DNA of 64,000 nucleotides from a virus, in the IMG/VR virus record IMGVR_UViG_3300047509_000037, positions 32,152-96,151 of that record; one strand, written 5' to 3'. Below the pieces are notes generated by a model, which was not told the origin of the DNA, did not search any database, and saw nothing but the letters and a program-made list of their open reading frames with translations. The position numbers were made by a program, and so were the translations under genes. Numbering within the stretch: position 1 is the stretch's first letter; the number at the start of each line of letters is the position of its first letter. This document shows, piece by piece, positions 11,474-45,506 of this stretch.

Positions 11474-11492
11474 AGTGTCTGGAGGATTTCTC

Positions 11493-25866: not shown

Positions 25867-25876
25867 GAGCGCACAC

Positions 25877-26880: not shown

Positions 26881-27239
26881 GATTCGCCAACGGGCGCTAC
26901 CCAATCGCACACGACCAAGAGCAGGAACCGATTGACAACCCATCGCAGCGTCTCATCCTCCAAGACGATTCGCTGAAGATGCGGAAGCGACCGGACTACG
27001 CTTACGACACCGAGAACGGATACGCCCGCGTCTGGACGTGGTGGTACACTCCCAAAGACTGTACCGACATGATTAAGGACGTGCGGGCGAAGGGGCTTGC
27101 GAAGGGCTTGCTGAAGATGGAGATTCTCATCGCGCAAGAGGCTTACGCTGAGTCGATGGATTGGTTCACACGAAATGGATTTGAGCGCGACGAGGGACGT
27201 GGGTCAGGCGACCTACTCTCTTTCGTTCGGGCGCTGTAG
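26877..27239 (+). CDS. Hypothetical protein, possibly GNAT-like
   Basis: 120 residues; ATG overlaps the previous TGA. AKGLLKMEILIAQEAYAESMDWFTRNGFERDE resembles the last helix-strand of GNAT acetyltransferases, but the acetyl-CoA loop is not visible. It ends 1 base before tRNA-Leu. Confidence 0.4.
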   Translation: MRFANGRYPIAHDQEQEPIDNPSQRLILQDDSLKMRKRPDYAYDTENGYARVWTWWYTPKDCTDMIKDVRAKGLAKGLLKMEILIAQEAYAESMDWFTRNGFERDEGRGSGDLLSFVRAL

Positions 27240-29849: not shown

Positions 29850-30074
29850 CTACACTTCATTCCCGAAGTGTGTAGGGTCCGGTTGCCAAGTGACCGGATT
29901 TGAGTCTAGGCTGGGGTTTGTCGCAGGAATCGGATTGCCGAAATGCGACGGATTAGGAGTGGGCCAAGTCACAGGATTACTATCATCCTTCGGACTCGCG
30001 GGAGGAACCGGATTTCCTTTTCGATAACTCTTTCCGGTCGTGTTGAGGTCAGTACGTACAACACCTTCAGGCAT
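29850..30074 (-). CDS. Small proline-rich tandem-repeat protein
   Basis: 74 residues; ATG behind AAAGG. Two ~26-residue repeats, each GNP[VI]P...DSNPVTW...P[ST]HFGN, fill most of the protein. Probably a linker or virion peptide. Adjacent to the fibre gene. Confidence 0.6.
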   Translation of the reverse strand: MPEGVVRTDLNTTGKSYRKGNPVPPASPKDDSNPVTWPTPNPSHFGNPIPATNPSLDSNPVTWQPDPTHFGNEV

Positions 30075-30093
30075 GACGACCTTTCAGAATCTT

Positions 30094-30168
30094 TGGTGGA
30101 CAGTACAGGGGTTGAACCTGCAACCTCCTGCGTGCAAGGCAGGCGCTCTCCCATTGAGCTAACCGCCC
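30094..30168 (-). tRNA. tRNA-Ala (anticodon TGC)
   Basis: 75 bases on the - strand. Acceptor GGGCGGT/ACTGTCC with two wobbles, D arm AGCTCAATGGGAGAGC, anticodon loop CTTGCAC (TGC), T arm GCAGG-TTCAACC-CCTGT and encoded CCA. Confidence 0.92.
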
Positions 30169-30283
30169 ACAGGACATGTACTGGCACGATTCCCGAGGCA
30201 CAAGGCCGCAGGGTTGACAGCCGACTCCGTAGAGTCTCCCGCATGTCCACGGGTTCTCACAGCAATCGATAGGCTATTTCGCA
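30169..30283 (-). other. Gap with tRNA-sized inverted repeat
   Basis: GGACATG (30172-30178) and CATGTCC (30242-30248) bracket 77 bases on the - strand. Inside is GACTC-TACG-GAGTC, a hairpin with a stable UACG loop. No T-loop or CCA is found, so it is not a normal tRNA. A 41-codon frame (30159-30284) coupled by TAATG to the upstream gene also runs through it. Confidence 0.35.
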
Positions 30284-30409
30284 TTACTCCATCGATGTGT
30301 AGTTGTTGTTCATCGGTGCCCGCCACAGAACGCGAATGGCTGCGTAGCCATTGGCGACATCGTCGGCGGTCATCGTGTAAATCACTTTAGTGCAATTGGG
30401 CGAAGACAT
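30284..30409 (-). CDS. Small hypothetical protein
   Basis: 41 residues, ATG behind GGAGAGGGCACC. VIYTMTADDVANGYAAIRVLW. It sits between tRNA genes. No family recognised. Confidence 0.5.
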   Translation of the reverse strand: MSSPNCTKVIYTMTADDVANGYAAIRVLWRAPMNNNYTSME

Positions 30410-30524
30410 GGTGCCCTCTCCACTCCAACACAGGACCGGAGTAGGCGAACACGTTATGACTGTGTAGTAGCCCGAAGTGCGACTAGGTTAGAACGTTCGG
30501 AGCCGTTCTCTGCTCCCGAAGTTT
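30410..30524 (-). other. Gap with a cloverleaf-like fold
   Basis: Between tRNA-Met and the small gene. On the - strand GGAGCAG and CTACTCC could pair (6 of 7) around an AGAAC/GTTCT arm and a TAGTC/GGCTA arm, but no conserved T-loop or CCA follows. Possibly a decayed tRNA. Confidence 0.3.
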
Positions 30525-30602
30525 TGGTAGCGGGAGTTGGATTTGAACCAACGTACTCTGGATTATGAGACCAGCGAGGGAACCGGACTCCTCTATCCCG
30601 CC
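30525..30602 (-). tRNA. tRNA-Met (anticodon CAT)
   Basis: 78 bases. Acceptor GGCGGGA/TCCCGCT (G-T first pair), D arm GAGG/CCTC, anticodon loop CTCATAA (CAT), T arm GTTGG-TTCAAAT-CCAAC, encoded CCA. Paired position 1-72 argues against an initiator; it could be elongator Met, or Ile if the wobble C is modified. Confidence 0.9.
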
Positions 30603-30608
30603 ATCGGG

Positions 30609-31319
30609 TTAAGGCTTGATTGCTTCACGACCGAGGAACCCGACAGCAACACCAGCCCAGAAAGTTTTCCACTTACTCCGGCGGGCGTCTTTCACGAGGG
30701 CATCCTTCTCATCTTTCCATGCCTTCGCGTTCTTGTCGTCTTCGGTCTTCATGCTGCCGATAAGTTTATCGCGGTCAGCCACTTGTGTCAAGGCTGATGC
30801 GGTATTCGCTTGCGAGTCACTCAACTGCTCTTTGGTGTCTGTCAGGTCTGCGCTACAAGCATCTGACAAAAGTTTCGTAGCGGTGAACTGCTGGAGGTCT
30901 ACCGTCGGCACGTTCGCGCCGGAGTCGGTTGCGACCAACGGCGTAGGCAGCGCCGGATACGCGGCGTTCAAATCTGCGACCGCCTCAGGCGGCGTCTTCG
31001 GTGCCGTGACTTCTACCACCTTCTTCTGGGTAGCTGCGTCACGAGCGACGATGGTCTGGACGAGCGTTGCAATCTCGGCGTCCTTCGCGGCACGCTCTTG
31101 TTGCGCGACGGCGTCGTGTTGCGCCATCGTAGCCGTCATCTGGTCAACGATTGCTTTCTGTGCGGCGGCATCCTTCGCGGAGACCGATGCTTCGATGTCC
31201 GCCTTATGTGCGGCGTAGTCGATGTACTTGGTCGTCCCCATGAACCCGACCGCGAGAACCGCTGCGATGATGATGAGACGTTCGTGTGCAACGAACCACT
31301 TCAGATACGTGTCCAGCAT
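30609..31319 (-). CDS. Membrane-anchored coiled-coil protein, possible Rz-like spanin
   Basis: 236 residues. N-terminal transmembrane helix (RLIIIAAVLAVGFMGTTKY), a long Ala/Lys/Glu coiled coil (about 35-115), a Pro-rich hinge and a second hydrophobic segment near 215-233 (WKTFWAGVAVGFLG). The N-in helix plus coiled coil fits inner-membrane spanins, though the C-terminal hydrophobic part is unusual. Follows tRNA-Met. Confidence 0.5.
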   Translation of the reverse strand: MLDTYLKWFVAHERLIIIAAVLAVGFMGTTKYIDYAAHKADIEASVSAKDAAAQKAIVDQMTATMAQHDAVAQQERAAKDAEIATLVQTIVARDAATQKKVVEVTAPKTPPEAVADLNAAYPALPTPLVATDSGANVPTVDLQQFTATKLLSDACSADLTDTKEQLSDSQANTASALTQVADRDKLIGSMKTEDDKNAKAWKDEKDALVKDARRSKWKTFWAGVAVGFLGREAIKP

Positions 31320-31327
31320 GTTGTCTC

Positions 31328-31531
31328 CTACTGATTGACGAGAAACGTTCCGTCGTCACTAATCTGCGTTCCCGGCAGACCGCTCAACTGGTCGAGTGCC
31401 TGTTGGAACACTTGACGCTTCACTTCAAGGTCGGCAGAAGCCGCCTGAATGGTTGCGAACGCCGTCTTGTACGCGGCAACCTTTGAACTGATTGCCGATT
31501 GCTGCGGTGCTGTCAACGGTGTGACCTTCAT
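31328..31531 (-). CDS. Small helical protein
   Basis: 67 residues from ATG 31531 behind GGAGAAGC. Coiled-coil-like helix (SAISSKVAAYKTAFATIQAA), then QISDDGTFLVNQ. Next to the spanin-like gene. Function unknown. Confidence 0.55.
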   Translation of the reverse strand: MKVTPLTAPQQSAISSKVAAYKTAFATIQAASADLEVKRQVFQQALDQLSGLPGTQISDDGTFLVNQ

Positions 31532-31573
31532 GCTTCTCCTGTGGTGCCAGTTTGTCCGAACTAGGAAACGGAT

Positions 31574-31652
31574 TGGGTGGCGAGTGGAAGTCGAATCCAC
31601 CAGAGGTCAGGTTCACAGCCTGCCATAACATTCCCAGAGTTATCATCGCCAC
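31574..31652 (-). tRNA. tRNA-His (anticodon GTG)
   Basis: Acceptor GTGGCGA pairs perfectly with TCGCCAC, followed directly by CCA. Read as a His tRNA, the first G is the encoded G-1 pairing with C73, and one base pair is missing. D arm ATAAC/GTTAT, anticodon loop CTGTGAA (GTG), T arm GTGGA-TTCGACT-TCCAC. Confidence 0.85.
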
Positions 31653-31928
31653 AATTTGCCGCACACGCTCACCGGGGTAACTTCGTTCTTGTCCCGCGTT
31701 GGTGTGCGGACTTAATCTGGTCCCCGTGGCAGGTGGTGTGCCCTGCGACCCTCGCCTTCCAATGGCGATGCTGACCACATTTCTCAGCTTCACGGGGTCA
31801 TAGAATTTGTGTGGGTCTTCGGCTCACGCTTCAGGTTACACCCACTGTCACCCCTGACCATTTCGCTTCTAACAGGCTGGTCAGTCCACGCTCCTGCACA
31901 TCGGGGTTCTCCCGGCAAGCAGGTTATC
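31653..31928 (-). ncRNA. Candidate structured RNA beside tRNA-His
   Basis: No supported ORF in 276 bases, but at least six perfect or near-perfect hairpins. CCGCACAC/GTGTGCGG (31659-31666/31702-31709), GGAC/GTCC (31708/31720), GCAGG/CCTGC (31729/31742), CGCC/GGCG (31753/31764). GGGGT/ACCCC (31794/31850) encloses GTGGGT/ACCCAC (31811/31840); CTGACCA/TGGTCAG is at 31854/31878. Strand unproven, assumed - like its neighbours. Phage RNAs such as GOLLD and ROOL lie near tRNAs, but I cannot match this to them. Confidence 0.4.
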
Positions 31929-32408
31929 TTACAGCGTCTTCAGGTCGAAGAACGTCTTGATGCTCTGGTACTCGTGCGGCGACAGCGGTTCTGCCGTTCC
32001 CACTTCACCCTTCTCGTTCAGAGAGGCAATCTGGTCGGGCATGTCATTCAACGTCGCTGGGCGCTTGCCCAACTTGATGAGTGTCGCGGTGAAGACGTAG
32101 CCGATGAGATTCCAAATCGCCTGAGTCGCGTGAGGTTCGTCACGCATCCCAGCCTTCAGCTTCGCCAAGTGTCGTTCGCAGGAGTCGATATACCATGACA
32201 GCGGCATACCCTTCTCCCAATTACGTGACGCGTACTTTGCCGCGCCGTCTTCGTAAATCCGGCTGACCATCCAGATGACCCAATTCGGCACGAGGGATGG
32301 TTTGCCCTTGTTTGCCGACTTGTCGCGCACTGCGCCTGTTTCCGTTGTACGACGTTCGCCGGAGTCTTTGAACCCCTCGACCATCGTCTTTGTCTCACTC
32401 CCCATCAT
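31929..32408 (-). CDS. dATP/dGTP diphosphohydrolase-like protein (DUF5664 type)
   Basis: 159 residues. KPSLVPNWVIWMVSRIYEDGAAKYASRNWEKGMPLSWYIDSCERHLAKLKAG and EPHATQAIWNLIGYVFTATLI match the all-alpha phage family with dATP/dGTP diphosphohydrolase activity. It would adjust the nucleotide pool. Overlaps the HAD gene by 4 bases and so is in one operon with it. Confidence 0.75.
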   Translation of the reverse strand: MMGSETKTMVEGFKDSGERRTTETGAVRDKSANKGKPSLVPNWVIWMVSRIYEDGAAKYASRNWEKGMPLSWYIDSCERHLAKLKAGMRDEPHATQAIWNLIGYVFTATLIKLGKRPATLNDMPDQIASLNEKGEVGTAEPLSPHEYQSIKTFFDLKTL

Positions 32409-33043
32409 TCCCCCTTCAGAACAATTTCAGCGAACTCGTTCACTGAGTAAACGCGTTGAAATTCGGGATTGACATAGTCCTGATTGTGAGACGCGTTCAT
32501 CAGAAAAACTTGACAGGTCGGGTTCGCCTTCTTGATTGCTTCACAGTTTGTCGGACGGTCGTCGATGAAGTAGTCGTACTTCAGCGCAGCCGCCAACGGA
32601 CCTTTCTCGTTCGAGACGAACACCGTCGGGAACGCGATAAGGAAATTCTTTCGGAGCCATGTTGCAGATTGGCGTCCAACGTCGATGCCGCCCTTCGTCA
32701 CCGCACGAGCCGTCGGAAAATACAACTTGGTCCGATAGTCCAGCTTGTTGATGAGTTGAGCGTCAACCCCCGGCATGACTTCGAGAGTCTGCCAGAAGTC
32801 GGGCGTGGCGATGATGACATCCCACACTGCGACGACGATTTTGTCCTTCTGCTCCGGCGTTAATGGAGTCCCGTCGAGGAACTTGCAACCGTCCCAATCC
32901 CAATTGGACTGAAGTACGTTCGGGTCCACTTGGAACAGCCGACGGGCGATGTCCATGAACGTCTTCATGAAATTCGCTAGAACGTCGTCAAGGTCCATGC
33001 CAACAATCTTGCGATTGTCTTTGATGAAGTTTGGGGCTGGCAT
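32405..33043 (-). CDS. HAD-family 5'-nucleotidase-like protein
   Basis: 212 residues. Motif I GMDLDDVLANF (Asp17, Asp19), motif II FPTARAVTKG (Thr), Lys of RKNFLI, and motif IV DYFIDDRPTNCEAI. The layout matches 5'(3')-deoxyribonucleotidases. Together with the diphosphohydrolase it suggests deoxynucleotide turnover. Start ATG overlaps nothing; stop overlaps the next gene. Confidence 0.75.
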   Translation of the reverse strand: MPAPNFIKDNRKIVGMDLDDVLANFMKTFMDIARRLFQVDPNVLQSNWDWDGCKFLDGTPLTPEQKDKIVVAVWDVIIATPDFWQTLEVMPGVDAQLINKLDYRTKLYFPTARAVTKGGIDVGRQSATWLRKNFLIAFPTVFVSNEKGPLAAALKYDYFIDDRPTNCEAIKKANPTCQVFLMNASHNQDYVNPEFQRVYSVNEFAEIVLKGE

Positions 33044-33044
33044 G

Positions 33045-33302
33045 TTAGCTCAACCCCAAATCCTTCAGAGCCGGAGGGGTCTGTTCGCCCTTCACAATTC
33101 TGAAACCCTTGATGAAGTTCATGTCGTTCATCGCCTGAAGACGCTGGGTGTGGATGAGCCAGTAGGGAACCTCGTAGGCTACCTCTTGCGTTCCACCTTC
33201 AGCGGTCTTGGTGATGATTGACATTTCACACGTAGGACCGCAGCCGTAGCTGCCATCCAACGGAATTACGAAGCCTTTCGGCTGGTCTTGGTCTTCGGAC
33301 AT
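33045..33302 (-). CDS. Hypothetical protein
   Basis: 85 residues from ATG 33302 behind GGAGGAGACT (a longer start at 33314 would use an ATG inside the SD). GSYGCGPTCEMSII, VPYWLIHTQRLQAMNDMNF. No family recognised. Confidence 0.6.
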   Translation of the reverse strand: MSEDQDQPKGFVIPLDGSYGCGPTCEMSIITKTAEGGTQEVAYEVPYWLIHTQRLQAMNDMNFIKGFRIVKGEQTPPALKDLGLS

Positions 33303-33341
33303 AGTCTCCTCCATGCTCGAACGATTTGTACTGCGAAACCT

Positions 33342-34964
33342 CTAGGCGTGCCACTTCCCGTTCTTCATCGTCACGATGGCTCGTTGCCCGTTAGGGTAGA
33401 GCACCACGTGCGAATGACTCCACGAACTCGGACCCGTCGTGTAATCCCAGCCCGTTGTCAGCTTCGACGACGTGCCAGCGACGTACAGCCCGTGATAGAT
33501 TCCGGCTGAGTGGGTGTGCGCCGTCGTTGCCTTCTTCCCAATCTTTGCGAGAGTCGCGGGGTTACCGAAACTGCCGTTGGGTCCAAGGTGACCGTGCATA
33601 CCGCATTCAACTTCAGCAATCTCGAAGGGGTCATCGGGGAGCAGGAATTGAACCGCGCCCGCTTTCAGACCAGCCTCGTTCTCCATGACATAGCGAGTGA
33701 GATTGATGTTCTTCACCATCTTCATCTGGCGCAACTCGTGGAACATGAAAGTCTGCATACGCAGGAAGATTTCAGTGTTCGGCGGGTCCACCCGATAGTC
33801 GTACTCTTGCAGCCAAGCCTTCAACCACGAGCGGTCGTGATTGGCGTCAGGCACGACGGTCTTGCACCACGGTCGGAGATAACGCTCCAGCACCGTGCGG
33901 GTCTGCTTGAACTCCTCCTCCACGCGGTGAAGCCCACGGAGCCACACGGTGAACTTCTCGTGAATGGCTTTGTGCTTCCGGTTGTGGCGGTTGAACCCAG
34001 CACCCTCAAACAAATCGTGGATGAATTGCGCCGACGGCTTGAGCGTGTCGAGCATCCCCTGAGACGCTTCGACTACTTCAGGCTGCGATGCCGTTGCGTG
34101 CAAATCGCCCCACGTAATCGCGGCGACCTTAGCGTCGGTTGATGTAATCTCCCCGCCCTGTGCCACGACTTGCAAATCTTGAATCGTGCGACCGTTCTTA
34201 CGAGCCGCAACTTGACGTACCCACCAATTGCCTTCGCTGTCCACTTCCACGAGAAGGAACGCATAGCGGTGGTGATGCTCCGCTTTGATGCCCAGCTTCT
34301 TCTGGAGATAGTTCATCAACGTCACAGCGCCCGTCGTGTAAATCATCTTCGTCGGGACATCGGGCGTTGTGGCAATCGAACGCATCTCAATCTTCGTGTG
34401 CGGGAAGACGATGCTGTCTGCGCCGCCGTAAGTCTCCAATCCCGCGATAGGATTATCTTCGGTCGGCAGAATGTTCATGTTACCGCACCAGAGGAGTCCC
34501 GGCGCGAGTTGTACCTTCTCATCGCTGATGAAGGGCACGATAGCTGGGTCGAACCACAACGTGTGGTCGTAGGCTTTCTTCGTCCCACGCTTCACCGCCA
34601 GCTTGCCGTAGTTGTTCTGATTGTACGAGAACGTTCCTACGAGAATCTGGGCGTCGTAATGCTTCGCCATCGCTTGCACGTTGTCCCAGAAAGATTTGTG
34701 GACGTGCGTGTTGTTCTGAGCCGAGGTCAGGATGTACCGTTTGATTTTCCCTGTCGCCGGAAGACTGGTCTCTGTCGGAGCCGCGTGGCGCTTGCCGCCA
34801 GCAAGGGGCTTCTTCCCCATGCCGACCGCTGCGAGGTTGCGCCGGATTGAACTGCGAGACATGCCGAGTTCTTTTGCTACGGCAGTGATGTTTCCGCTGT
34901 ACTTGTTGAACAAAGCGACCACTGTCGCACGCTGCTTCGTGAGTGCCTCTGAAGTCTTACCCAT
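33342..34964 (-). CDS. Metallophosphoesterase-like protein related to T5 A1
   Basis: 540 residues. An N-terminal helix-turn-helix (ITAVAKELGMSRSSIRRNLAAVG, about 26-48) precedes a domain with TWGDLHA, VPDANHDRSWLKAW, GMHGHLG and TAHTHSAGIYH. These are the GDxH, GNHD-like, GH and GHTH motifs of calcineurin-like phosphoesterases. The layout resembles the T5 A1 DNA-transfer/host-degradation family. AGGAG lies upstream. Confidence 0.65.
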   Translation of the reverse strand: MGKTSEALTKQRATVVALFNKYSGNITAVAKELGMSRSSIRRNLAAVGMGKKPLAGGKRHAAPTETSLPATGKIKRYILTSAQNNTHVHKSFWDNVQAMAKHYDAQILVGTFSYNQNNYGKLAVKRGTKKAYDHTLWFDPAIVPFISDEKVQLAPGLLWCGNMNILPTEDNPIAGLETYGGADSIVFPHTKIEMRSIATTPDVPTKMIYTTGAVTLMNYLQKKLGIKAEHHHRYAFLLVEVDSEGNWWVRQVAARKNGRTIQDLQVVAQGGEITSTDAKVAAITWGDLHATASQPEVVEASQGMLDTLKPSAQFIHDLFEGAGFNRHNRKHKAIHEKFTVWLRGLHRVEEEFKQTRTVLERYLRPWCKTVVPDANHDRSWLKAWLQEYDYRVDPPNTEIFLRMQTFMFHELRQMKMVKNINLTRYVMENEAGLKAGAVQFLLPDDPFEIAEVECGMHGHLGPNGSFGNPATLAKIGKKATTAHTHSAGIYHGLYVAGTSSKLTTGWDYTTGPSSWSHSHVVLYPNGQRAIVTMKNGKWHA

Positions 34965-34976
34965 TGTGCTCCTCTC

Positions 34977-35279
34977 CTAGATTTCCACTGTCGTGTCGGA
35001 GTCCCCGGTCATGTGTTGCGCCATGCGACCGATGTTCTTATCCATCGTGATGATGGACCGCTCCATGTGCGGAAAGTGGTTTGTTGCCATTGTGTCGATT
35101 TGCCCGACGGTCTTGGTGACCTGAGCCTGCGCCTGACTGGAGAATTTGCCAGCCTGCCATACAAGCCAGATGACCGTCCCCCAGCCGACGAGATGAATGT
35201 GTTGTGAAGCCCACTCGAAGGGGCTATTTCCCGCTGTCTGTTGCGCCGCTTGCGCCGCTTGCACCAGAAGATGAATCAT
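34977..35279 (-). CDS. Membrane protein, possible holin partner
   Basis: 100 residues with one hydrophobic segment (HLVGWGTVIWLVWQAGKF, about 29-46) and a helical tail (TVGQIDTMATNHFPHMERSI). Overlaps the holin-like gene upstream by 56 bases. Function by position only. Confidence 0.45.
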   Translation of the reverse strand: MIHLLVQAAQAAQQTAGNSPFEWASQHIHLVGWGTVIWLVWQAGKFSSQAQAQVTKTVGQIDTMATNHFPHMERSIITMDKNIGRMAQHMTGDSDTTVEI

Positions 35280-35481
35280 CGGAAGTTCCTTTTACTTTGC
35301 CCCACATCTGAGCGCCGCCGTGAGCCGCGAGAAACCCGTACATTGCGTACAGGGAGTTCACGTAGTTCGGACCAAGGTCTGCATGTGTCTTGACGTGAAC
35401 GACTGTAGTCACGATGAAGACGATGATGGCGATTGGGATATGTGCGTAAGTCTGCAATTTCTCTAGCACGTTAGTCCACAT
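35224..35481 (-). CDS. Holin-like membrane protein
   Basis: 85 residues with two hydrophobic helices (IPIAIIVFIVTTVVHV and SLYAMYGFLAAHGGAQMW) and a polar Ser/Gly-rich tail, the size and layout of a phage holin. It lies just after the cell-wall hydrolase gene. No sequence family recognised. Confidence 0.5.
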   Translation of the reverse strand: MWTNVLEKLQTYAHIPIAIIVFIVTTVVHVKTHADLGPNYVNSLYAMYGFLAAHGGAQMWGKVKGTSDDSSSGASGASGATDSGK

Positions 35482-35492
35482 TTCTCCCCTCC

Positions 35493-35936
35493 CTAACGCC
35501 AGAAATTAAGACCGCCCATGTTGGCGATGCGGTCGTGGTTCTCTGGAGACCGGACGATTTTTTCGAGGAACCATTCGCGTTCTACGCGGGCGAGGTCCGC
35601 CCAATAGAGTCCGCCTGATTTCCCTTGCGCTCTATCCAGTGCGCTGAGTGTAAGGTCTGAGACCGAGCCGTCGTAGATTCCATCGACGGCGTGCAACAGT
35701 TTGATGAATGCAGGTTCCCACACCGACGGATGCGTCAGCGGCGGGAGTTCGTTCTCTGCCATGAATTGCGGGATGTTATCTATAACTTGTAGCCAACTGC
35801 CCCAGCCCTGCCGCACACGATTGGCGAGTGCTTGCATGACCATCTGTCCTGCGATGTGCCCGCCCGAATAGGACTGACCGAACCGCCAGCCAGCCTGCAC
35901 CAATTGAGCCTTAATAAAATCATCCTGCTTGAGCAC
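35493..35936 (-). CDS. SleB-like cell-wall hydrolase
   Basis: 147 residues from GTG 35936. VLKQDDFIKAQL..., MVMQALANRVRQGWGSWLQVIDNIPQFM has the N-R-x-x-x-G-W-x-x-W-x-x-V-I...F order of SleB/CwlJ-like hydrolases. Probably the endolysin of the holin pair. The GIY-YIG gene overlaps its start by 17 bases and may have replaced the original 5' end. Confidence 0.55.
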   Translation of the reverse strand: MLKQDDFIKAQLVQAGWRFGQSYSGGHIAGQMVMQALANRVRQGWGSWLQVIDNIPQFMAENELPPLTHPSVWEPAFIKLLHAVDGIYDGSVSDLTLSALDRAQGKSGGLYWADLARVEREWFLEKIVRSPENHDRIANMGGLNFWR

Positions 35937-36369
35937 TTCGCCGCCTATCCCACCATGCTTGGATAGCAACACTGCGTTTGGCAATTTCTTCCGGGGATTG
36001 TTTACCCTTCGGACGACCTTTACCAATTGCTTTCTTGTTGCCTCTATGGATGGTGCTCAGAAACCGTCGATGTTCTTCGGTTCGTTTGTATCTCCCGTTC
36101 TCAGCCGCACTACCGCCAAGCCCTCCGTCTGCGTGGTTCCGCAGACATCCGGTGCTGCGGTCGATTCTACCATAGAAGTCTACGAGAAACTTCTCTGCGT
36201 CAAAGGCTTCCTGCTCATCCGCGTATTCCTGCACGATGATTCGACTCCGTGACACGGGACGATGCACGGAATGTTGAACTCGGAGGTATGCCCTTCCGCC
36301 CGTGCCTTTGCCGACATAGTACGGCGTCCCGTCTTCCCTCAACCAGAGATAGACGTAAAACTTGAGCAT
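35920..36369 (-). CDS. GIY-YIG homing endonuclease
   Basis: 149 residues from ATG 36369 behind GGAAGGG. FYVYLWLREDGTPYYVGKGTGGRAY is the GIY-YIG core, with the catalytic Arg in that strand and the Glu in EQEAFDAEKFLVDFYGR. A basic tail with RRTEEHRRFLS and RPKGKQSPEEIAKRS follows, a nuclease-associated modular DNA-binding type. It overlaps the hydrolase gene. Confidence 0.85.
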   Translation of the reverse strand: MLKFYVYLWLREDGTPYYVGKGTGGRAYLRVQHSVHRPVSRSRIIVQEYADEQEAFDAEKFLVDFYGRIDRSTGCLRNHADGGLGGSAAENGRYKRTEEHRRFLSTIHRGNKKAIGKGRPKGKQSPEEIAKRSVAIQAWWDRRRSAQAG

Positions 36370-36390
36370 AGACCCTTCCATAAACAGAGT

Positions 36391-36427
36391 AGCACGAAGG
36401 TGTGGTTACTGTCAACACCTTCGTGCT
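36391..36427 (-). promoter_or_regulatory. 13-bp dyad overlapping a promoter
   Basis: AGCACGAAGGTGT (36391-36403) and ACACCTTCGTGCT (36415-36427) are perfect inverted copies separated by 11 bases. On the - strand TTGACA (36410-36415) and TACTCT (36386-36391) flank it with an 18-base spacer, feeding the GIY-YIG gene. No T-run follows, so an operator is as likely as a terminator. Confidence 0.6.
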
Positions 36428-36454
36428 AGTTACTTTGGTTTCGCTGGTTGTTCG

Positions 36455-36655
36455 CTACTTGGTGTCTACATCTGGCGGATTCTGAAGGGCTTCCACTTCC
36501 CGTTGAAATTCCTCAGGGAGTTGGGCGATGTCTTCCGCGTCGAGAGCCTTCGGCGCGGGCGGCTTGCCCATGAATGCCCAATGCAGGTAGTTGTTCAGCG
36601 TCATCGGGACTTTCGCCCGAATCATCGCCGCCTGTACTGCGTCCTGTTTCGCCAT
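36455..36655 (-). CDS. Small hypothetical protein
   Basis: 66 residues, ATG behind GGAGGC. Helical (QDAVQAAMIRAKVPMTLNNYLHW), with an acidic C-terminal helix. No family recognised. Confidence 0.55.
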   Translation of the reverse strand: MAKQDAVQAAMIRAKVPMTLNNYLHWAFMGKPPAPKALDAEDIAQLPEEFQREVEALQNPPDVDTK

Positions 36656-36770
36656 GTGTTTGTGCCTCCAAGCACGTTCCTAGATGCAGAGTCGCCCGAC
36701 CTGACCGAATCCGAACACCGCACTCGGCACAGAAGGGCTCAACGAATCTGGAATCGAACCGCGTCTTCAT
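36513..36770 (-). CDS. Possible small zinc-ribbon protein (doubtful)
   Basis: A frame from ATG 36770 with FCAECGVRIRSG and a later Cys. It fills the 154 bases before the gene at 36455 but then overlaps it in another phase. Only the first 45 residues look plausible. Confidence 0.25.
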   Translation of the reverse strand: MKTRFDSRFVEPFCAECGVRIRSGRATLHLGTCLEAQTHGETGRSTGGDDSGESPDDAEQLPALGIHGQAARAEGSRRGRHRPTP

Positions 36771-36776
36771 GCTCAA

Positions 36777-36806
36777 AGCGTATCAGAAAGGGGCTGATGT
36801 TGTCAA
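36777..36806 (-). promoter_or_regulatory. Possible promoter
   Basis: On the - strand TTGACA (36801-36806), an 18-base spacer and TACGCT (36777-36782). It lies just after the end of the large ejection-protein gene and would serve the small genes downstream. Confidence 0.4.
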
Positions 36807-36809
36807 CCC

Positions 36810-39800
36810 CTATTCCTTGACTTTGACTATGTTCGACAGGGCATCGGTCACCTTCGAGCCTGTTGGGAAGTCCAGCGATTGATGATTCTTACCGTCCACA
36901 GTTTCGAGAACGATGCGACCATTTCGTAGTTTCCCTGCCGCTGCACGAATCTGACGTGCTTGGCTTTCAGTGATTTGTTTCGGTAGCGAGAAGACTTGCT
37001 CCTCGCCCGCACGTGACATGCGATAACGGCTACGGATGACGCCTGTGTCTTTGATGAACTGCTCACGCGTATTCTCGGTAGTTTTGCCGCCGAGCATGTG
37101 GTCGTGTTCACCAACGAGCGGAATCATGTCGCCTTCAGGTAGGATGAATCCTGCCTTCAGAACGTCTCCAGTCGTTCCATACTTCTGCTTGAGTGCGTCC
37201 GTCACTGAGCCTTCGCCAGTGCCGCCCGTTTGGATTTCGCCTTCGCCGCCGAGATGATAGACCGCCTTTTGATTGGCAGCTTTACCAGCTTTGATAGCGT
37301 CCGCACGTTTGTCATAAATCCTAGCGACATCTAACGTGTGTGCCCCCGTATCGGGGTCTTTCCACGTGCCAACAGCATGTCCGGGTTTGTTAAGAACGTC
37401 GGAGTTGATGTCTTTGAAGGCATCTATGTGGTCGGGAGTTAGTTTGCCTTTGACTTGCTGGGTTCTTTCAGGATAAGAGCCGACTGAGTATTTGTTGGCT
37501 CCCGCGAGATTGTTTCCCTGCATGTCGAAAGTCGAACCGCCCTTTTCGTTGTGCGCCGCGACCTGTTCCTCGTTCGAGAAATCCGTCGGATTGAAAGACG
37601 TGCTTTCATCTTTCAACTCACGCGTAGGTGCTTTTGTCTCAGGTAATTCATCCCCACCCATCCACGGCGGTCGAGTGAAACCCTTCGCCGCTTTCACAAT
37701 CTCTGCACGTGCTTGGTCGAGTGTCAAGTCGCCCGCCATGTGCTGGGACCAGATGCCCGTCACTGCCTTGCGGAGTTCGGGAGTCCTTTTCTCGTCGCCC
37801 ATGAGAGCCTTAACGCCTTCCCATGTTATAGATTGCAGTTCACGCGGCAAGATACCGATGCGTTTCGCTGCGTCGATATAGGCTGCGTGGTGAAGCGAGT
37901 ACATCCCCTTCTGACCCGTGGCTTTGTTCGCCGGGGCACCACCGAAGACGCCCTTGATTTCTGCGTCGTCACTACCACGAGGGATTAGCATGTCTGCGTT
38001 AGCAGCGTGCGTGTCAATCGTTGCGTGACCTTCCGGTGAGTTCGGAGAGATGATGTTGTTGTAGAAGTTCCGAATCTTGTGACCGTCACCGATGACATCG
38101 TGGATGGCGGCAGGAGTGCCGTCGCCCTTGAGCATCTCCAAGGCTTTCGCCATTGGTGCGGGCATTCCCCACTGCATGTTGAGATGTCCGCGAACGTCGC
38201 CGTTCGGAGCATACAACTCAGTTTGAGGAGCGCCGTGTGCTTGGTCTAGGATTCGCATCCACAACGCTTGCGAGAAGTTCGTCGCGTCTGGGTTCTCAGG
38301 GTCGTTGAGTTCGTCGAACGTCTTGCCACGAAGTTTGTCGAGTTCAGCGCGGAAGTCTGGTTTGATTCCCTTGCCGTTACGAATCTTCGATAGCGTGGTG
38401 TCCATCTCAGGTGACCACTCGTGACCGCGTTGGTTGACGTACATGTCAATCATACGCTTCGCCTGACCCGCGTTCACGTCCCATGCGTTCTGCGGAGAGA
38501 GCGCCGCGATAACTCCTGCGACTTTCTCTTTCGGTACGCCGTACTGGTCTGCCCACTTGATTGCCATCTGGTGAGCAGAGTCATACCAGAGTTTCGAGAT
38601 TTCACGAATCTCCGGCGGAATTTGATTGTGCAACCATTCAAGGTTGCCCGACCATCGGTCAACAACTTTCTGGAGACCCTGACGAGGATTCGCCAAGTCT
38701 TCAGGAGTCAGGTTGATTCCCAACTCAGGATACTTGTTGACTTCATCAAGCAGCTTTGCCATGTGTCCCGGCTTCAGCTTCTCAGCTTCTTCGATTGCAT
38801 CCCAGCCCGTCTTGTGTTCGGTTGGGTTGTTCTCGCCTGCGGGACGTGTGGAGATTTCACTGTCTGGGTTGTGCCCAGCGGTGACGCTGCCTTCCGGTTC
38901 GGCTTGCTTGGGGATGAAGTGCTCGACACCGCCGCCTTGTTCAGTCGGGTTGCCATCGCTATCCATCACCGGAGCGTGTTGCACATCATAGCCGCGCCGT
39001 TCGAGTTTGTTCCAGTGCCCTTCGTTCTCAGGAGAGCGGAGGTCTGGGTGGTCGGAGACGATTCGACTGTACGCGTCGGTCTTGTTCATCCGAGCGACAG
39101 CTTCGTCCATCATCTGTTGTCCAGCGCCGGGAGCATCGACTGCGGAGATGCCCGTTTGCCGGAGTTGTTTCTTGCCTTCAAACCCCGGACGCGTGTCCGC
39201 TTCAGGCTTGAGAATCATCTGGCTCGTGCCGTTCGGGTGGTCGAACTGCCATGCGCCGTCTTCACGTCGCGTGACCTTCATATCACCCGGATTGCCGCCA
39301 AGCCGCTTGACTGGCTCATTGATGTTGCGACCGACAGCGCCCTTCTCACTCGAAAGCGGAGACGCCTTGTAAGCATCGTAAGCCTTCTGGAGATAGCCCT
39401 TAAATCGTTCGGACACCGAGAGCGCCTGTGGGTTCTGGAGCGCCGCGTTGATTTCCTTTGCCGCTGGTTCGGAAGTCATGGCGTCACCGAGGAACCGAGT
39501 CATCGCCGTGGTGAGAACGTGCTCACCAACGGTCTTGCCCAGCATTGCCTCTGCGATTGCGCCGATGCCGCCGTGTCCCGCTGCGATGAACGGGATTGCC
39601 TTCGCTGCGAATTTCGCGAGCGTTCCGAACTCTGGGGAGACCTGTTGGTCTTTCAGAGTCTTGGCGAGTTCAGCCAACGTGTCGATGTGCTCTGGAGTGA
39701 AGCCAGCTTTCACAAACTGGTTCTTCTCATCAGGCATCCGGCGCAAACGGTCAATCTGTTTCGCCAGCTTGTTGCCATCGACTTGATAGCCGCCTTCCTC

Positions 39801-41183
39801 ACCCGGACCTGTCGCGCTGTCGAATGCCGTAGCAATCTTTTCCAGTGCGATAGCCTTGCGGTAGTTGCCCTTCATGGAGTCAACATCAAGACCAGCCTTA
39901 GCGAGTTCGTCGCGGTGCTTGTCGATGATTTCATCCTGAAGCGCGAGGGCTTCCTTATATTTCTGACGACCCTCAGTCGTGAAATCGTTCCGAGAGTTGT
40001 CTGCCATGTCTTGTGCGTCACTGAACGCGTTGTTGCTGACACGGTCGAGTTCCTTCATTGCGGGCACAGATTGCTCACGCATGTCGCGTGCGTGCGAACG
40101 AATGCCAAGACGGTCTTGGTCGTTGATGGTGGTCTCTGCGCGAGAGCCGACAGCTTTACCTGTGGTCTCTCCGACTGCTTGCTTGACCGCGCCTTCTGTG
40201 TTGCGTGCCGCTTCCTCGTGAACTGAGGGGTCCACTGCTTTCTGGGCTGCGTTTGCGAGTACGCCATTGCCCTCTGCGCGAACTGGAATCTGGTTGCCGT
40301 CCACGTCTTTCATCACGGGACGAACCCTCTCTTGAAGTTTCGCGCCACGTTGTGACAAGTCCTTCGCGCCCGCTGCGCCAGCTAGTGCAGCTTGACCGAG
40401 ACCGCCGAGCATCTCCTGAGTGTTCTCTGGAGTAGCGCCGTTCTCAATCATGTCCATGCCGCCGTGAGCGCCTTGGTACAGACCTTGAAGACCGAACGCA
40501 GTGCCGACGAGTGGTGACGCGACCTTGGCAATCTTACCGACCGCCTTCGCGCCTTGGACTTCCTCAGAGCCGAGTCCGAGAGTTCCGAGCGAGAGTGGGC
40601 TGGTGAATCCTGCCGCAGTGCTGGAGGTATCCGCCGCCGAACCGTTGATGAACGTGTTGACAGCCGAAGCCGCCGCCGCGTGATGGGTAAGAAATTCGCG
40701 GATTTTGTTCTTCTGGATTTTTCCGCTCTTGTCCTTTGTGAGTTCGCTTCCCGGCAAGAAGTGGTCATTCGCCTTCGTCTCGAAGTCGTTGACGCCGGGG
40801 AGATACATTTCCTGATACATCTTCTCGAACGCAGCGGCTTTGATGATGTCGCTGGTCTTCATGCCTTCAGGCAGAATGTTGTCGAAGATAGGTTGGTTGA
40901 CCCAATCCCACGCACGACGGAGCAGACCATGCTTCGCCAGTTCTTGCTTCTGCGCCAGTTCTTTCTGGGCATCAGACTGAGCCATCCCAGCTTTTGCGCC
41001 GGGAGTAAATGCGGGAGGAGCCGTGCTCACCACAGCGGAATCGACCATGTTGTCGAGTCCGCTCTTGAGACGGTCGCTGTCTGATTGCTGAGGCAGCGGT
41101 TGTTGAGTGGGTGGTTGTGAGGGAGCCGCTGGTTGAGTCGGCTGGGCTGGCTGTTTCGCCATCTGGTCTACCATGCTATCCAT
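36810..41183 (-). CDS. Large internal virion / ejection protein
   Basis: 1457 residues, comparable in size to podovirus ejection proteins. A Pro/Gln-rich start, helical and Ala-rich regions, a Gly-rich segment (GHGGIGAIAEAMLG), then AGVIAALSPQNAWDVNAGQAKRM and DTHAANADMLIPRG, a domain found in many phage proteins. The C-terminus carries GFILPEGDMIPLVGEHDHMLGG and REQFIKDTGVIRSR. It is probably injected into the cell with the DNA. Follows two other internal-protein genes. Confidence 0.65.
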   Translation of the reverse strand: MDSMVDQMAKQPAQPTQPAAPSQPPTQQPLPQQSDSDRLKSGLDNMVDSAVVSTAPPAFTPGAKAGMAQSDAQKELAQKQELAKHGLLRRAWDWVNQPIFDNILPEGMKTSDIIKAAAFEKMYQEMYLPGVNDFETKANDHFLPGSELTKDKSGKIQKNKIREFLTHHAAAASAVNTFINGSAADTSSTAAGFTSPLSLGTLGLGSEEVQGAKAVGKIAKVASPLVGTAFGLQGLYQGAHGGMDMIENGATPENTQEMLGGLGQAALAGAAGAKDLSQRGAKLQERVRPVMKDVDGNQIPVRAEGNGVLANAAQKAVDPSVHEEAARNTEGAVKQAVGETTGKAVGSRAETTINDQDRLGIRSHARDMREQSVPAMKELDRVSNNAFSDAQDMADNSRNDFTTEGRQKYKEALALQDEIIDKHRDELAKAGLDVDSMKGNYRKAIALEKIATAFDSATGPGEEGGYQVDGNKLAKQIDRLRRMPDEKNQFVKAGFTPEHIDTLAELAKTLKDQQVSPEFGTLAKFAAKAIPFIAAGHGGIGAIAEAMLGKTVGEHVLTTAMTRFLGDAMTSEPAAKEINAALQNPQALSVSERFKGYLQKAYDAYKASPLSSEKGAVGRNINEPVKRLGGNPGDMKVTRREDGAWQFDHPNGTSQMILKPEADTRPGFEGKKQLRQTGISAVDAPGAGQQMMDEAVARMNKTDAYSRIVSDHPDLRSPENEGHWNKLERRGYDVQHAPVMDSDGNPTEQGGGVEHFIPKQAEPEGSVTAGHNPDSEISTRPAGENNPTEHKTGWDAIEEAEKLKPGHMAKLLDEVNKYPELGINLTPEDLANPRQGLQKVVDRWSGNLEWLHNQIPPEIREISKLWYDSAHQMAIKWADQYGVPKEKVAGVIAALSPQNAWDVNAGQAKRMIDMYVNQRGHEWSPEMDTTLSKIRNGKGIKPDFRAELDKLRGKTFDELNDPENPDATNFSQALWMRILDQAHGAPQTELYAPNGDVRGHLNMQWGMPAPMAKALEMLKGDGTPAAIHDVIGDGHKIRNFYNNIISPNSPEGHATIDTHAANADMLIPRGSDDAEIKGVFGGAPANKATGQKGMYSLHHAAYIDAAKRIGILPRELQSITWEGVKALMGDEKRTPELRKAVTGIWSQHMAGDLTLDQARAEIVKAAKGFTRPPWMGGDELPETKAPTRELKDESTSFNPTDFSNEEQVAAHNEKGGSTFDMQGNNLAGANKYSVGSYPERTQQVKGKLTPDHIDAFKDINSDVLNKPGHAVGTWKDPDTGAHTLDVARIYDKRADAIKAGKAANQKAVYHLGGEGEIQTGGTGEGSVTDALKQKYGTTGDVLKAGFILPEGDMIPLVGEHDHMLGGKTTENTREQFIKDTGVIRSRYRMSRAGEEQVFSLPKQITESQARQIRAAAGKLRNGRIVLETVDGKNHQSLDFPTGSKVTDALSNIVKVKE

Positions 41184-41200
41184 GCGTTACTCCCTTTCAG

Positions 41201-43507
41201 TTACTTCCAACCATTTTCTTTCAGAAGTTGCTTTGCCAAGTCCGCGTTCCCGTTCGCAGCGTCAACGTACATCTTGACGACCTTCTGCGATTGAGCATCT
41301 TGCGGATTCAGTTGCGTAGGATTGTTACTGTTCCACCCACGCGGCAACTCTATGGACATCGGAGCCGATTGACTCTTAATGCCGAAGTGGTTCATCACAG
41401 AGACCGCCGCCGGGGAAATAAGTCCGGGGTAGTTCTGCTTGACCGTGTTCTGGTACTTCCAACCGAGACCAGCCGCACGAGCATCGGCGGTGTTCGTGAT
41501 TGCCTTGAGCGCCGTGAGCGCCGTCTGAGCAGTCGCGTCCTTGCCGAGCACGCCTTCCATCGCACGGATGTCAGATTCGTGTTCTGCACGATTCTGGTTG
41601 AGGAAGTTCATGTATTCCTTCAACGGTGCGATGATGGTGTCTTTGAACGTCTGGTAGTTCTGGTCGTTCGCTGCGTTCTCAGCAATCCACGAGAGCGAGT
41701 GGTTGAGAAGCGGAGAACCTGAACGAACCCAAGCATCGTTCGCGTCAAGTGCTTCTGCGGTGTGCCGCATGAGCGTATCGAACGAAGACAACTGAGCGCC
41801 GATTTTGCCTTGCGGGTCGCTGTACTCTTGGAACGTCTTGGACCGGAGTTCTTGGTTGGTCAATCCGTGCGTCACAGGGTCGAGACCACGTGCCGCGGCT
41901 TTGCGCTGGAGAAGTGAATCCATCATCAAGCGTGCGCCGCCTGAGCGAATTGTCGCCAAGTCTTTTGGACTGGAGAGACCGCCGTTGAGCATACTGTCGG
42001 CTGTCTGGTCGAGCACGGCAGGGTCTCCGGTGCGGAGGTCTTCCTGCTTCTGCTTGTCGTTCACTTCCGTGATACGGCTGCCGATACGTTCCGCTTCCCC
42101 CGTGGTCAACTGGCGGTCGCCGGGAATCATGGCTTGGAGAGTCTTGCGGTCGGTCGGGTCTTTGATGTTGTTGATGGCACCGAGGATTGCATCCTGTTGA
42201 GGTTTGCCAATCGGAGCCTTATCACCAACGCCGCCTTCTTTCGCCAGAGCATTTGCACGTTGACGTTCGAGGTCGGTGTCACGCATCCAATTATCGACAT
42301 CCTCAGGCTTGCCGAGTAGGTCGAGCATCTTGCCGCCGTCCGCCGTGCCACGAATGGCGCGAAGAACGTTGTCAGTGTCTCCAGCATCAGGACGACCGTT
42401 GCCAGCCGCGAGAGCCTTCTCCGCTGTGTCAACTGCTGCCTGATATGCCGCTGGATTCTCTTTGTACGCGGCGGCGAGGTCGATGTTACCCTTCGCCTTA
42501 GGATTGATTTCTTTCTGAGCACGATTGAGGAAATGCTCAACCGACGACAGAGTGTTCGCGGTGTGGACCGCGTCCATGTATGCGTTGATTGGAACCGTGA
42601 CGTTCCCGCCAGTCAGGTCGAACGCCTTGGCGTAGCTCTTGTTGAACTTGCCGAGTTCGTCCGTGACTTCCTTAGGGAGTTTCAGGTTCGCTTTGTTGTT
42701 GATGATTGCATAGGTCGGCTCGTCTTCGAGCACGCCCGTCTGCGGGTTGGGCTTCGTAATCATGCCGTCGATGATGACGTTGTTATCCATCAACGAGTGA
42801 TTGCCCGCGAGAACTTGGTCAGCCGTCATCCCTTTGTTGAGGAAGATGCTATCAGGCATGTCGGCGGGACGGTTCTTGTCGAAGTCCATCAGGGGCTTCA
42901 AGAAGACATCGGTGTTTCGCGCAACAGTGTCCGCGAGAACTTCGTGCTTCTGGTGAGCCATTGCAGCGGCTTGCTGCACCATCTTGGAGTTGTTCTGGAA
43001 CGTCATCAGCTTTGCAGCTTGCTGGTCGTTCGTCATTTGCTGGGCTGCGTCACGACGCTTCTGCTGGAACTCAGCGCCTTTCTCAGCCGCTCCCGCCATC
43101 GTGTTAGTCGGGTCAGCGACAGGACCATACGGCGTGTTACGATACTGAGTCGGAGCCATCAGACCCGCGAGTGCGCCCGCAAGAATTGCCCGCCCCAATT
43201 GCCCCTTAGTCTGTGGGACTTCTCGGATTGCTCCGGTCGCAGGGTCAACTACTTTGACAGGTCCACCAGACATCGTCTTGAGGATATTGTTAAAAATCCC
43301 CGACATCGGATGCGGTTTCTCTGGGGTGTTCGTGACCTCTCCTGTAGGCAACTTGTCATTTTGTCCCGGCTGAGGTTGCGCCGGAGTCGCGGAAGGAAAT
43401 ACAGTTCCCGGCTGCGTGGGCTGGGTTGGTTGAGCGGGCGGTTGGTTAGGAGTGACTTGAGTCTGTGTTGAATCTGACGTAGTAGTCTGTGCTTGTGGGT
43501 CGGGCAT
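41201..43507 (-). CDS. Internal virion protein
   Basis: 768 residues. N-terminal Pro/Thr/Gln-rich linker, then long helices with little beta structure (KRRDAAQQMTNDQQAAKLMTFQNNSKMVQQAAAMAHQKHE; TKLANALAKEG). Size and position before the giant protein suggest a partner like the T7 gp15/N4 internal proteins. No enzymatic motif seen. AGGAG lies upstream. Confidence 0.6.
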   Translation of the reverse strand: MPDPQAQTTTSDSTQTQVTPNQPPAQPTQPTQPGTVFPSATPAQPQPGQNDKLPTGEVTNTPEKPHPMSGIFNNILKTMSGGPVKVVDPATGAIREVPQTKGQLGRAILAGALAGLMAPTQYRNTPYGPVADPTNTMAGAAEKGAEFQQKRRDAAQQMTNDQQAAKLMTFQNNSKMVQQAAAMAHQKHEVLADTVARNTDVFLKPLMDFDKNRPADMPDSIFLNKGMTADQVLAGNHSLMDNNVIIDGMITKPNPQTGVLEDEPTYAIINNKANLKLPKEVTDELGKFNKSYAKAFDLTGGNVTVPINAYMDAVHTANTLSSVEHFLNRAQKEINPKAKGNIDLAAAYKENPAAYQAAVDTAEKALAAGNGRPDAGDTDNVLRAIRGTADGGKMLDLLGKPEDVDNWMRDTDLERQRANALAKEGGVGDKAPIGKPQQDAILGAINNIKDPTDRKTLQAMIPGDRQLTTGEAERIGSRITEVNDKQKQEDLRTGDPAVLDQTADSMLNGGLSSPKDLATIRSGGARLMMDSLLQRKAAARGLDPVTHGLTNQELRSKTFQEYSDPQGKIGAQLSSFDTLMRHTAEALDANDAWVRSGSPLLNHSLSWIAENAANDQNYQTFKDTIIAPLKEYMNFLNQNRAEHESDIRAMEGVLGKDATAQTALTALKAITNTADARAAGLGWKYQNTVKQNYPGLISPAAVSVMNHFGIKSQSAPMSIELPRGWNSNNPTQLNPQDAQSQKVVKMYVDAANGNADLAKQLLKENGWK

Positions 43508-43516
43508 CTTTTCTCC

Positions 43517-44227
43517 TTAACCTTGTGCGGTAGGACCGCTGTACGTACTTGGGAAGTTTCCGGGGCTTGGTGAAGAACCACCGCCCGTCAGACTCTTAGC
43601 GAATCCGCCGCCGATTCCGCCGCCGAATCCACTAGCGAAGGAACTGATTGCAGACGTGCCGAGTTTCATAATGTCGTTCATCGCCCAATTGCTTTGGGTG
43701 TCGAGGTTCTGTTGGCTGGACTCCGCTTGCTGTTGAGCATCCGTAGCTTCTTTGTTCGCGGAGGTTGCGGGGTTGAACACGTTCGTCGAGTTCTCAAGTT
43801 CGCCAGTGGCAACCTTCCAGTTCTCGTTACCCTGCTTGTAGTTCTCAATGAGGTTTTCGTTCTCTTGCGCCGCCGTATCAGCAGCCGCCTTTTGGTCAGC
43901 CGCCATGATGGTCGCCTGAGTTCCGCCAGCCGGGGTGACAACGTTTCCGCCGCCGATAGCTGCTACACCTGCCGCCGCCGACGCCTTGAGATTGCGGGCT
44001 TCGGTCGCGCCTGCTTGAACAGTGCGGGCGTCCACAGCGTTCTGCTGTGCTTGGCTCCATCCAGTTTGGCTAGGACCACCGTTCACAATCCCGGTGAGTC
44101 CGTTCTTGATGGTGTTGAACACATCGCTTGCGCCTTGGAAGATTTGACCAGCTTCGTCAGTCACCTTGCTGGAGAACTGTTGAATCTGGTTATTGATTGT
44201 TTTGAGAGCCGAAGACGGTCCACACAT
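43517..44227 (-). CDS. Small internal virion protein (gp14-like)
   Basis: 236 residues from ATG 44227, coupled to the H-N-H gene by TAATG. Helical, Gln/Ala/Asn-rich (SSALKTINNQIQQFSSKVTDEAG), with a Gly-rich C-terminus (FGGGIGGGFAKS). First of three consecutive internal-protein genes, as in podoviruses. Function by analogy. Confidence 0.55.
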   Translation of the reverse strand: MCGPSSALKTINNQIQQFSSKVTDEAGQIFQGASDVFNTIKNGLTGIVNGGPSQTGWSQAQQNAVDARTVQAGATEARNLKASAAAGVAAIGGGNVVTPAGGTQATIMAADQKAAADTAAQENENLIENYKQGNENWKVATGELENSTNVFNPATSANKEATDAQQQAESSQQNLDTQSNWAMNDIMKLGTSAISSFASGFGGGIGGGFAKSLTGGGSSPSPGNFPSTYSGPTAQG

Positions 44228-45032: not shown

Positions 45033-45506
45033 CTACAAGGCTTCGACGCGAATGTGAACTGCGTACTGCATTGCCGAGCCACTCGAAGCGTAACCCGTCG
45101 TAGAGAAAGACAGGTCCGTCGCGGGACCACAACTGAGGATTGCGTCGTTCTGTTGCACCGTGGTGAGCAGGTTGCCGCTTGCCGTCGGTGTGAGCGTCCA
45201 CGTTTGGAGTTGACCGTTGTTCTGGTCGGTCCACGTGAGCACGATGGACGGAAGCGTCGAGGAGACGCCGCCTGCGGTCGTGACGATGATGTAGCCAGCT
45301 ACGCGGTAGAGACCGTTCGCCGGAGCCGAGACTACCGTGGTCGAACTGATGTTCGCCGTCTGTCCGGTCAGGTCAATGTTGTCCCCGGTGAGTTCTGGTG
45401 CCGACGTGACGTAGGCGCTGATGTTGCCGCTTGAATCTTTTTGGAAGGTGACGTTCGTCGAACCCGCTGGTGCCGCTGGGAGTGTTGAGTTCAAATTGAT
45501 TGACAT
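45033..45506 (-). CDS. Virion structural protein, beta-rich
   Basis: 157 residues. N-terminal SLNSTLPAAPAGSTNVTFQKDSSGNISAY, then NGLYRVAGYIIVTTAGGVSSTLPSIVLTWTDQN, strand-rich with many Thr/Ser. Resembles the C-terminal modules of phage receptor-binding or fibre proteins. Confidence 0.55.
   Translation of the reverse strand: MSINLNSTLPAAPAGSTNVTFQKDSSGNISAYVTSAPELTGDNIDLTGQTANISSTTVVSAPANGLYRVAGYIIVTTAGGVSSTLPSIVLTWTDQNNGQLQTWTLTPTASGNLLTTVQQNDAILSCGPATDLSFSTTGYASSGSAMQYAVHIRVEAL

Follow-up and report, generated by a model that had tools for sequence, protein, structure and literature searches.

A long, perfect dyad lies across a promoter-like sequence just upstream of a gene related to the GIY-YIG homing endonucleases in a viral contig of 96,151 nt (G000), of which positions 32152-96151 form the window of 64,000 nt analysed here. 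The question raised by this locus is whether the dyad works as DNA, as a binding site for a regulatory protein, or as RNA, as a hairpin at the junction between two operons. Positions below are those of the window, unless the contig or one of its relatives is named.

The dyad, its promoter and the neighbouring genes

The following features are found at the locus, the two elements of each promoter being predicted from sequence:
36390-36428, no strand: perfect inverted repeat with 14-nt arms and an 11-nt spacer
36410-36415, minus strand: -35 element TTGACA, overlapping the dyad
36386-36391, minus strand: -10 element TACTCT, preceded by TGc (extended -10), with a spacer of 18
36455-36655, minus strand: small gene (66 aa) upstream of the dyad, its stop codon 26 nt before the dyad
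35920-36369, minus strand: GIY-YIG homing endonuclease relative (the listed ORF begins at 36381)
35493-35936, minus strand: late gene labelled 'hyd' (147 aa), with a GTG start overlapping the end of the GIY-YIG gene
36777-36811, minus strand: second, similarly built promoter (TTGACA 36806-36801, spacer 18, TACGCT 36782-36777)

A first, sequence-only reading of this DNA described a perfect 13-bp dyad at 36386-36427. The dyad is real, at the place given, and its perfection was confirmed, but it is one pair longer than claimed: the arms, 36390-36403 (TAGCACGAAGGTGT) and 36415-36428, are 14 nt each and 100% complementary, with 11 nt between them. No other perfect inverted repeat with 14-nt arms (spacer 3-25 nt) is present in the contig, and a count at an arm length of 13 over the whole 96,151-nt contig, with spacers of 3-25 nt, gave four windows, versus a total of one over 40 mononucleotide shuffles. 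The length and perfection of the dyad are beyond chance. The double site was found in no other contig of the viral collection scanned.

The overlap of the dyad with a TTGACA...TACTCT promoter, also claimed in the sequence-only reading, was seen again, and the two hexamers make up a plausible predicted promoter on the minus strand, which also encodes the neighbouring genes. A simple promoter scan of 30000-44000 missed this promoter (one site was found, with a shuffle mean of 4.6) because TACTCT, by reading, matches TATAAT at three of six positions, and the rule of the scan needs four. The translation of the GIY-YIG gene probably begins at the ATG at 36369, which follows GGAAGGG, rather than at 36381. 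Its product matches phrog_314 (homing endonuclease) and three PHROG families without a named function, together with proteins in 33 phage records, one of the matches listed being annotated 'Seg-like homing endonuclease'. The Pfam GIY-YIG model gave no match to this protein, and no relatives of it were found in the viral contig collection; the GIY-YIG label is based on the PHROG and phage relatives and on the start of the sequence, KFYVYLW...PYYVGKG (by reading). The term 'hyd' is a label only, as the protein has no family match, and no relatives of 'hyd' were found in the genome contig collection.

The promoter before 'hyd' in related phages

The corresponding loci of relatives were collected via the conserved DNA-transfer protein (11 loci) and via 'hyd' (13 loci). 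One of these relatives, G001, is largely collinear with G000 (listed protein matches about 28-90% identical) and has no GIY-YIG gene at this place; its promoter before 'hyd' is kept, with the same 18-nt spacer, and bears a dyad, CGAAGGG/CCCTTCG, across the -35. There is no clear site of the TAGCAC-N4-GTGCTA type in G001, which keeps CGAAGG...CCTTCGTG and not the full site. In the viral collection, from which records very near the window may have been excluded, the pattern CGAAGG-N(1,2)-TTGACA-N(8,10)-CCTTCGTG was found in G001 only. Of 14 records compared, 5 have a match to TTGACA-N(10-25)-TCGTGNTA, G001 among them. Two CGAAGG...CCTTCG matches at 85.6 kb in G001 were attributed to chance; by reading, they lie within an HNH-like coding stretch.

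Four other loci, L004, L005 (alike here), L019 and L021, have the promoter before 'hyd' and no strong dyad. Neither L007 nor L005 has a whole GIY-YIG gene there, yet both keep the promoter; in L004 the seat is taken by another GIY-YIG gene, whose promoter lacks a dyad. Since a GIY-YIG promoter is dyad-free in L004 and a dyad is present without a GIY-YIG gene in G001, the dyad does not go with GIY-YIG genes as such. The comparison of these sequences makes the promoter look older than the GIY-YIG gene, and the conservation of the promoter in L007 and L005 suggests that it probably belonged first to the next gene, 35493-35936. The sequence-only reading, which spoke of the promoter of a GIY-YIG gene, is thus right as to position, but the gene that this promoter serves first is probably 'hyd'. 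The same reading would have counted the absence of the dyad from close relatives against it, and on this point the relatives are divided, with a dyad of another sequence in G001 and no strong dyad in the four loci named above.

The whole GIY-YIG gene of L004 occupies 6447-6989, upstream of 'hyd', and L005, otherwise alike in this stretch, has at 6927-6989 a GIY-YIG remainder of 20 codons that ends over the 'hyd' start. What appears by reading to be the C-terminal remnant of a homing gene is also present in G005 (L009 about 6880-7011). Given this remnant and the difference between L004 and L005, homing genes may settle preferentially in the seat upstream of 'hyd', as at a hot spot.

Recurrence of the arm as a candidate operator

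The reading preferred here, in which slightly more than even confidence is placed, is that the dyad consists of two inverted copies of an operator of about 16 bp, paired at the GIY-YIG/'hyd' promoter and recognized by a putative regulator. The proposed copies, with a third site elsewhere in the window, are as follows, the scores being those obtained when the arms were held out:
36390-36405, plus strand: proposed operator copy 1 (TAGCACGAAGGTGTGG), between the -35 and the -10; score 21.4, rank 6 of 192272
36413-36428, minus strand: proposed operator copy 2 (TAGCACGAAGGTGTTG), overlapping the -35 and extending upstream of it; score 23.0, rank 1 of 192272
13309-13324, plus strand: further proposed operator copy (TAGCACGAAAGTGTAG), in a promoter spacer (TTGACA 13298-13303, TAGTAT 13322-13327)

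The proposed unit, CACGAAGGTG, is present twice at the promoter; the two copies, inverted and 23 bp apart, would each be pseudo-palindromic (approximately TAGCAC-GARR-GTGYTA, core CACGADRGTG). Copy 1 sits in the promoter spacer and copy 2 over the upstream edge of the -35, and sites so placed would be expected to hinder RNA polymerase. A dimeric DNA-binding regulator, perhaps encoded by the phage itself, would bind to each copy and block RNA polymerase, shutting off a sigma-70-type promoter with an extended -10 that would drive 'hyd' together with the GIY-YIG gene before it. This regulator would have two further targets, the promoter at 13298-13327 and the array of sites at contig 27047-27110. 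Some phage or bacterial repressors have operator pairs that overlap promoters; the present locus is like them in its paired pseudo-palindromic sites around the -35 and -10 and in the array in a control region, and differs from them in that the regulator is putative and the motif has been matched to no named one.

Several control regions of G000 contain sites of this sequence. The sequence-only reading noticed no second copy in the window, but 13310-13322 matches its 13-mer with one mismatch; TAGCACGAAAGTGT, at 13309-13322, is the 14-nt arm with one mismatch and lies inside TTGACA-18-TAGTAT. This copy doubles as the last codons of a 357-aa ORF (12251-13324), and it says little by itself, because a second occurrence in the contig, allowing one mismatch, exists for 261 of 3000 random 14-mers. 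The search for further copies in the rest of the genome, proposed in that reading, yielded similar sites outside the window, but the entire dyad is present in the contig as a single copy. Three 16-bp sites lie at contig 27047, 27071 and 27095, in steps of 24 bp (CAC-N4-GTG at 27050, 27074 and 27098). They are flanked by a promoter on the minus strand (27034) and a gene on the plus strand (27171); two more sites are found at contig 26282 and 26303, the second being looser. The core CACGA[AGT][AG]GTG occurs eight times in the contig, versus a mean of 1.99 and a largest count of 8 over 200 dinucleotide shuffles. According to the gene calls used to place these core sites, which are mechanical and cover 88% of the contig, four of the eight are outside called genes (contig 26285, 27074, 27098 and 58893), though that at 58893 falls in an open frame of 182 codons. 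The core site at 27050 and both arms lie only within short, doubtful gene calls (57 and 67 aa), and the core site at contig 45463 forms part of the final codons of a 357-aa gene. A cruder ORF test puts contig 27047, 68541 and 68564 inside ORFs.

The arms scored 23.0 and 21.4 with a matrix trained without them, versus 12.1 bits for the best non-member, a result that is partly circular because the sites were picked for their likeness to the arm. Looser definitions of the site gave no excess: TAGCAC-N4-GTGCTA with up to three mismatches is not enriched in the contig (27 found, about 25 expected), and CAC-N(k)-GTG has no peak at k=4 (30 occurrences, with 17-40 at the other values of k from 0 to 20). 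There are 12 other near matches to the 14-nt arm (up to three mismatches), ten inside called genes and two outside.

The stretch at contig 25617-27170 (L003 5617-7170), about 1.5 kb in length, has only short or doubtful gene calls (46 and 57 aa, with minus-strand ORFs of 82 and 134 aa). It contains repeated CAC-N4-GTG sites and, by eye, other dyads, and its minus strand carries an apparent decayed HNH endonuclease gene. This stretch is possibly an origin or control region.

The motif also recurs in a relative, G012, which has replication genes in common with G000. A perfect TAGCACGAAGGTGCTA is found at 6547 of G012, and GCAC-N4-GTGC occurs exactly twice more within 100 bp of it. The 14-mer seen at 13309, TAGCACGAAAGTGT, is also present in G012, next to a -10; the promoter-like stretch there, TAGCACGAAAGTGTGGTATCAT at 19496, precedes a homologue of window ORF 11475-11768, a gene that G012 and G000 have in common. 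All four of these sites are outside called genes. Clusters of three sites (at most one mismatch, within 200 bp) were searched for in 12 records, six of them incomplete; one cluster is present in G000 and two in G012, the only one of the 11 other records to have any. The first G012 cluster lies in no called gene, and the second, at 10808, within a called gene of 350 aa. Held-out G012 sites ranked 2, 2, 4 and 5 of 199,970; the weakest of them, the array site at 6625, scored 13.4, below the best non-member there (14.9). Across 2.9 million viral contigs, TAGCACGAARGTGTRGTAT was found in two, G012 and G015; the latter match, in a record of 40% G+C, was discarded as probably due to chance, since none of the proteins of G015 match those of G000 or G012.

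As to the regulator, TAGCAC-N4-GTGCTA gave no match to a named one, although the motif may still be in the literature. The CIRCE element of HrcA, TTAGCACTC-N9-GAGTGCTAA, shares the half TAGCAC/GTGCTA with the proposed operator, at a spacing of 9 rather than 4, and was rejected, its best match in the contig having five mismatches. A tyrosine-recombinase core site, raised by an early-region protein that matches the phage integrase family, was dropped, as the distance between sites is not constant (21 to 24 bp). No helix-turn-helix family (Pfam) was found among 65 early-region proteins (taken from 80 gene calls, except for one from an ORF list), and two early-region proteins match the Srd anti-sigma factor family (PHROG, among the best 25 of 42 and the best 25 of 36 families). 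A weak lead to the regulator is provided by a Fis-type helix-turn-helix match near the start of the late-region DNA-transfer protein (33342-34964; residues 22-44, 21.2 bits, with a Pfam cut-off of 22). Two exact copies of CGAACNNNNGTTCG, which we take to be the Gram-positive LexA box, are present in the contig, at 45342-45355 and L002 9384-9397.

Hairpins, other explanations and a possible switch

The main alternative, though rather unlikely, is that the dyad encodes a terminator-like RNA hairpin that ends the late operon upstream and merges with the promoter of the operon that follows. Transcripts reading through would then fold into a 14-bp stem and stop, or be protected, there, and new transcripts would begin just past the -10 that follows the stem. 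A stable, G+C-rich stem does follow the end of the upstream gene (predicted -22.5 kcal/mol, beginning 26 nt after the stop codon), with five T among the next eight bases. Strong stems across the -35 were detected in 4 of 62 extended -10 promoters from 12 records (G004, G010, G011, G012, G013 and G014 being incomplete, and G003, G008 and G009 not entering as whole records), namely at the dyad, 36806, G001 53584 and G005 20343; all four (shuffle p ≤0.005) are near the junction between a large structural gene and 'hyd'. The stem at 36806 (AGGGGTTGA/TCAGCCCCT) spans the -35 of the promoter at 36777-36811, directly at the stop codon of a 1457-aa gene, and, unlike the dyad, this stem and those of G001 and G005 begin no more than 2 nt from the upstream stop codon. 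The four stems differ in sequence, yet stay largely complementary.

However, the dyad has a loop of 11 nt and a tail, CTCTGTTT, that is weak compared with TTTTACTTTATT, the tail of a canonical terminator at contig 90845; a short loop with a U-rich tail is lacking at the dyad, and the tails are poor in U at all four promoters. The dyad does not figure among the terminator-like sites of a scan that accepts loops of 3-8 nt. Covariation does not clearly exceed the control across the four sequences (69.6% of cells are paired, a value reached in 40 of 500 shuffles, and the covariation score was reached in 90 of 500), and 58 of the 62 promoters have no such stem at p ≤0.01. The idea that dyad promoters form a general class in these phages was dropped, with 4 of 62 at p ≤0.01 and 6 of 62 below 0.05. 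A hairpin also leaves unexplained why the arm should recur at 13309 and at contig 27047-27110. The sequence-only reading had offered an operator or a combined terminator/promoter, and the first option is the better supported, given the further copies of the arm at a second promoter, in a probable control region of this phage and in G012. The two roles could coexist at the dyad. If the hairpin explanation were true, the junction would be a compact terminator/promoter that changes in sequence and keeps its fold among relatives.

A canonical-looking terminator is present on the minus strand at 58694-58726 (contig 90845), between two minus-strand late ORFs, with a 13-bp stem, a 7-nt loop and a U-rich tail. 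A perfect 13-bp hairpin with a U-poor tail lies between two minus-strand genes at contig 12087-12117 (L002), and no promoter was noticed there.

It is improbable that the hairpin controls the translation of the homing endonuclease in read-through transcripts. Under this explanation, long transcripts would carry the hairpin before the ribosome site, and short transcripts from the promoter would not; the position of the promoter within the hairpin implies that its own transcripts should lack it. In T4, hairpins before I-TevI, segB and other genes restrict translation, and for I-TevI and segB a promoter is placed such that its own transcripts lack the hairpin (PMC2988022). A very stable hairpin, which does not cover the ribosome site, also lies upstream of seg43 in Aeromonas phage 25 (PMC2988022). 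The present dyad is similarly stable and directly precedes the ribosome site of its GIY-YIG gene, its stem ending 10 nt upstream of GGAAGGG, but the stem leaves that site uncovered. The overlap of the -35 with the hairpin sets the dyad apart from the hairpins of I-TevI, segB and seg43. The hairpin is not tied to the homing endonuclease gene, since G001 has hairpin and promoter without a homing gene at this place, and L004 has homing gene and promoter without a hairpin. The dyad differs from the T4 and seg43 parallels in that a relative has the promoter and a dyad without the homing gene, and in that the arm recurs elsewhere.

A palindrome that arose on the promoter by chance, with no special function, would be consistent with the restriction of the double site to this contig and with the dyad-free promoters of other relatives, but is hardly likely given the length, perfection and placement of the dyad and the CGAAGG...CCTTCGTG match that G001, alone among the contigs of the collection, showed at this promoter.

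The gene behind the dyad is that of a GIY-YIG homing endonuclease relative, and a T5orf172/MUG113 protein, presumably GIY-YIG-like, is encoded about 1.3 kb from the array (L003 8445-8819, by reading). That the GIY-YIG protein itself binds the dyad and represses its own promoter is nevertheless very improbable: T4 I-TevI does repress its own late promoter via an operator overlapping it, but that operator, bound by the endonuclease, resembles the homing site (15/20 identity; PMC2988022), whereas here the site is a dyad whose arm recurs away from the gene, and the dyad-bearing promoter of G001 has no GIY-YIG gene.

If the dyad is indeed a pair of operators, it may be part of a phage-wide switch, an extension that is proposed tentatively and seems doubtful as a whole. 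One possibly novel regulator would recognize TAGCAC-N4-GTGCTA sites at three places, an early control region, a promoter of the replication region and the late promoter, where the sites form a tight inverted pair; the GIY-YIG gene, inserted behind the late promoter, would have come under phage control, and the -35 would lie in a hairpin that recurs, with other sequences, at the same operon junction in relatives. If the operator reading is right, the sites would make up a set of candidate operators in an uncharacterised lineage of environmental phages of roughly 100 kb, which would serve as bait for the regulator, and a free-standing homing endonuclease would here be using the pre-existing, regulated promoter of the next gene, bringing none of its own.
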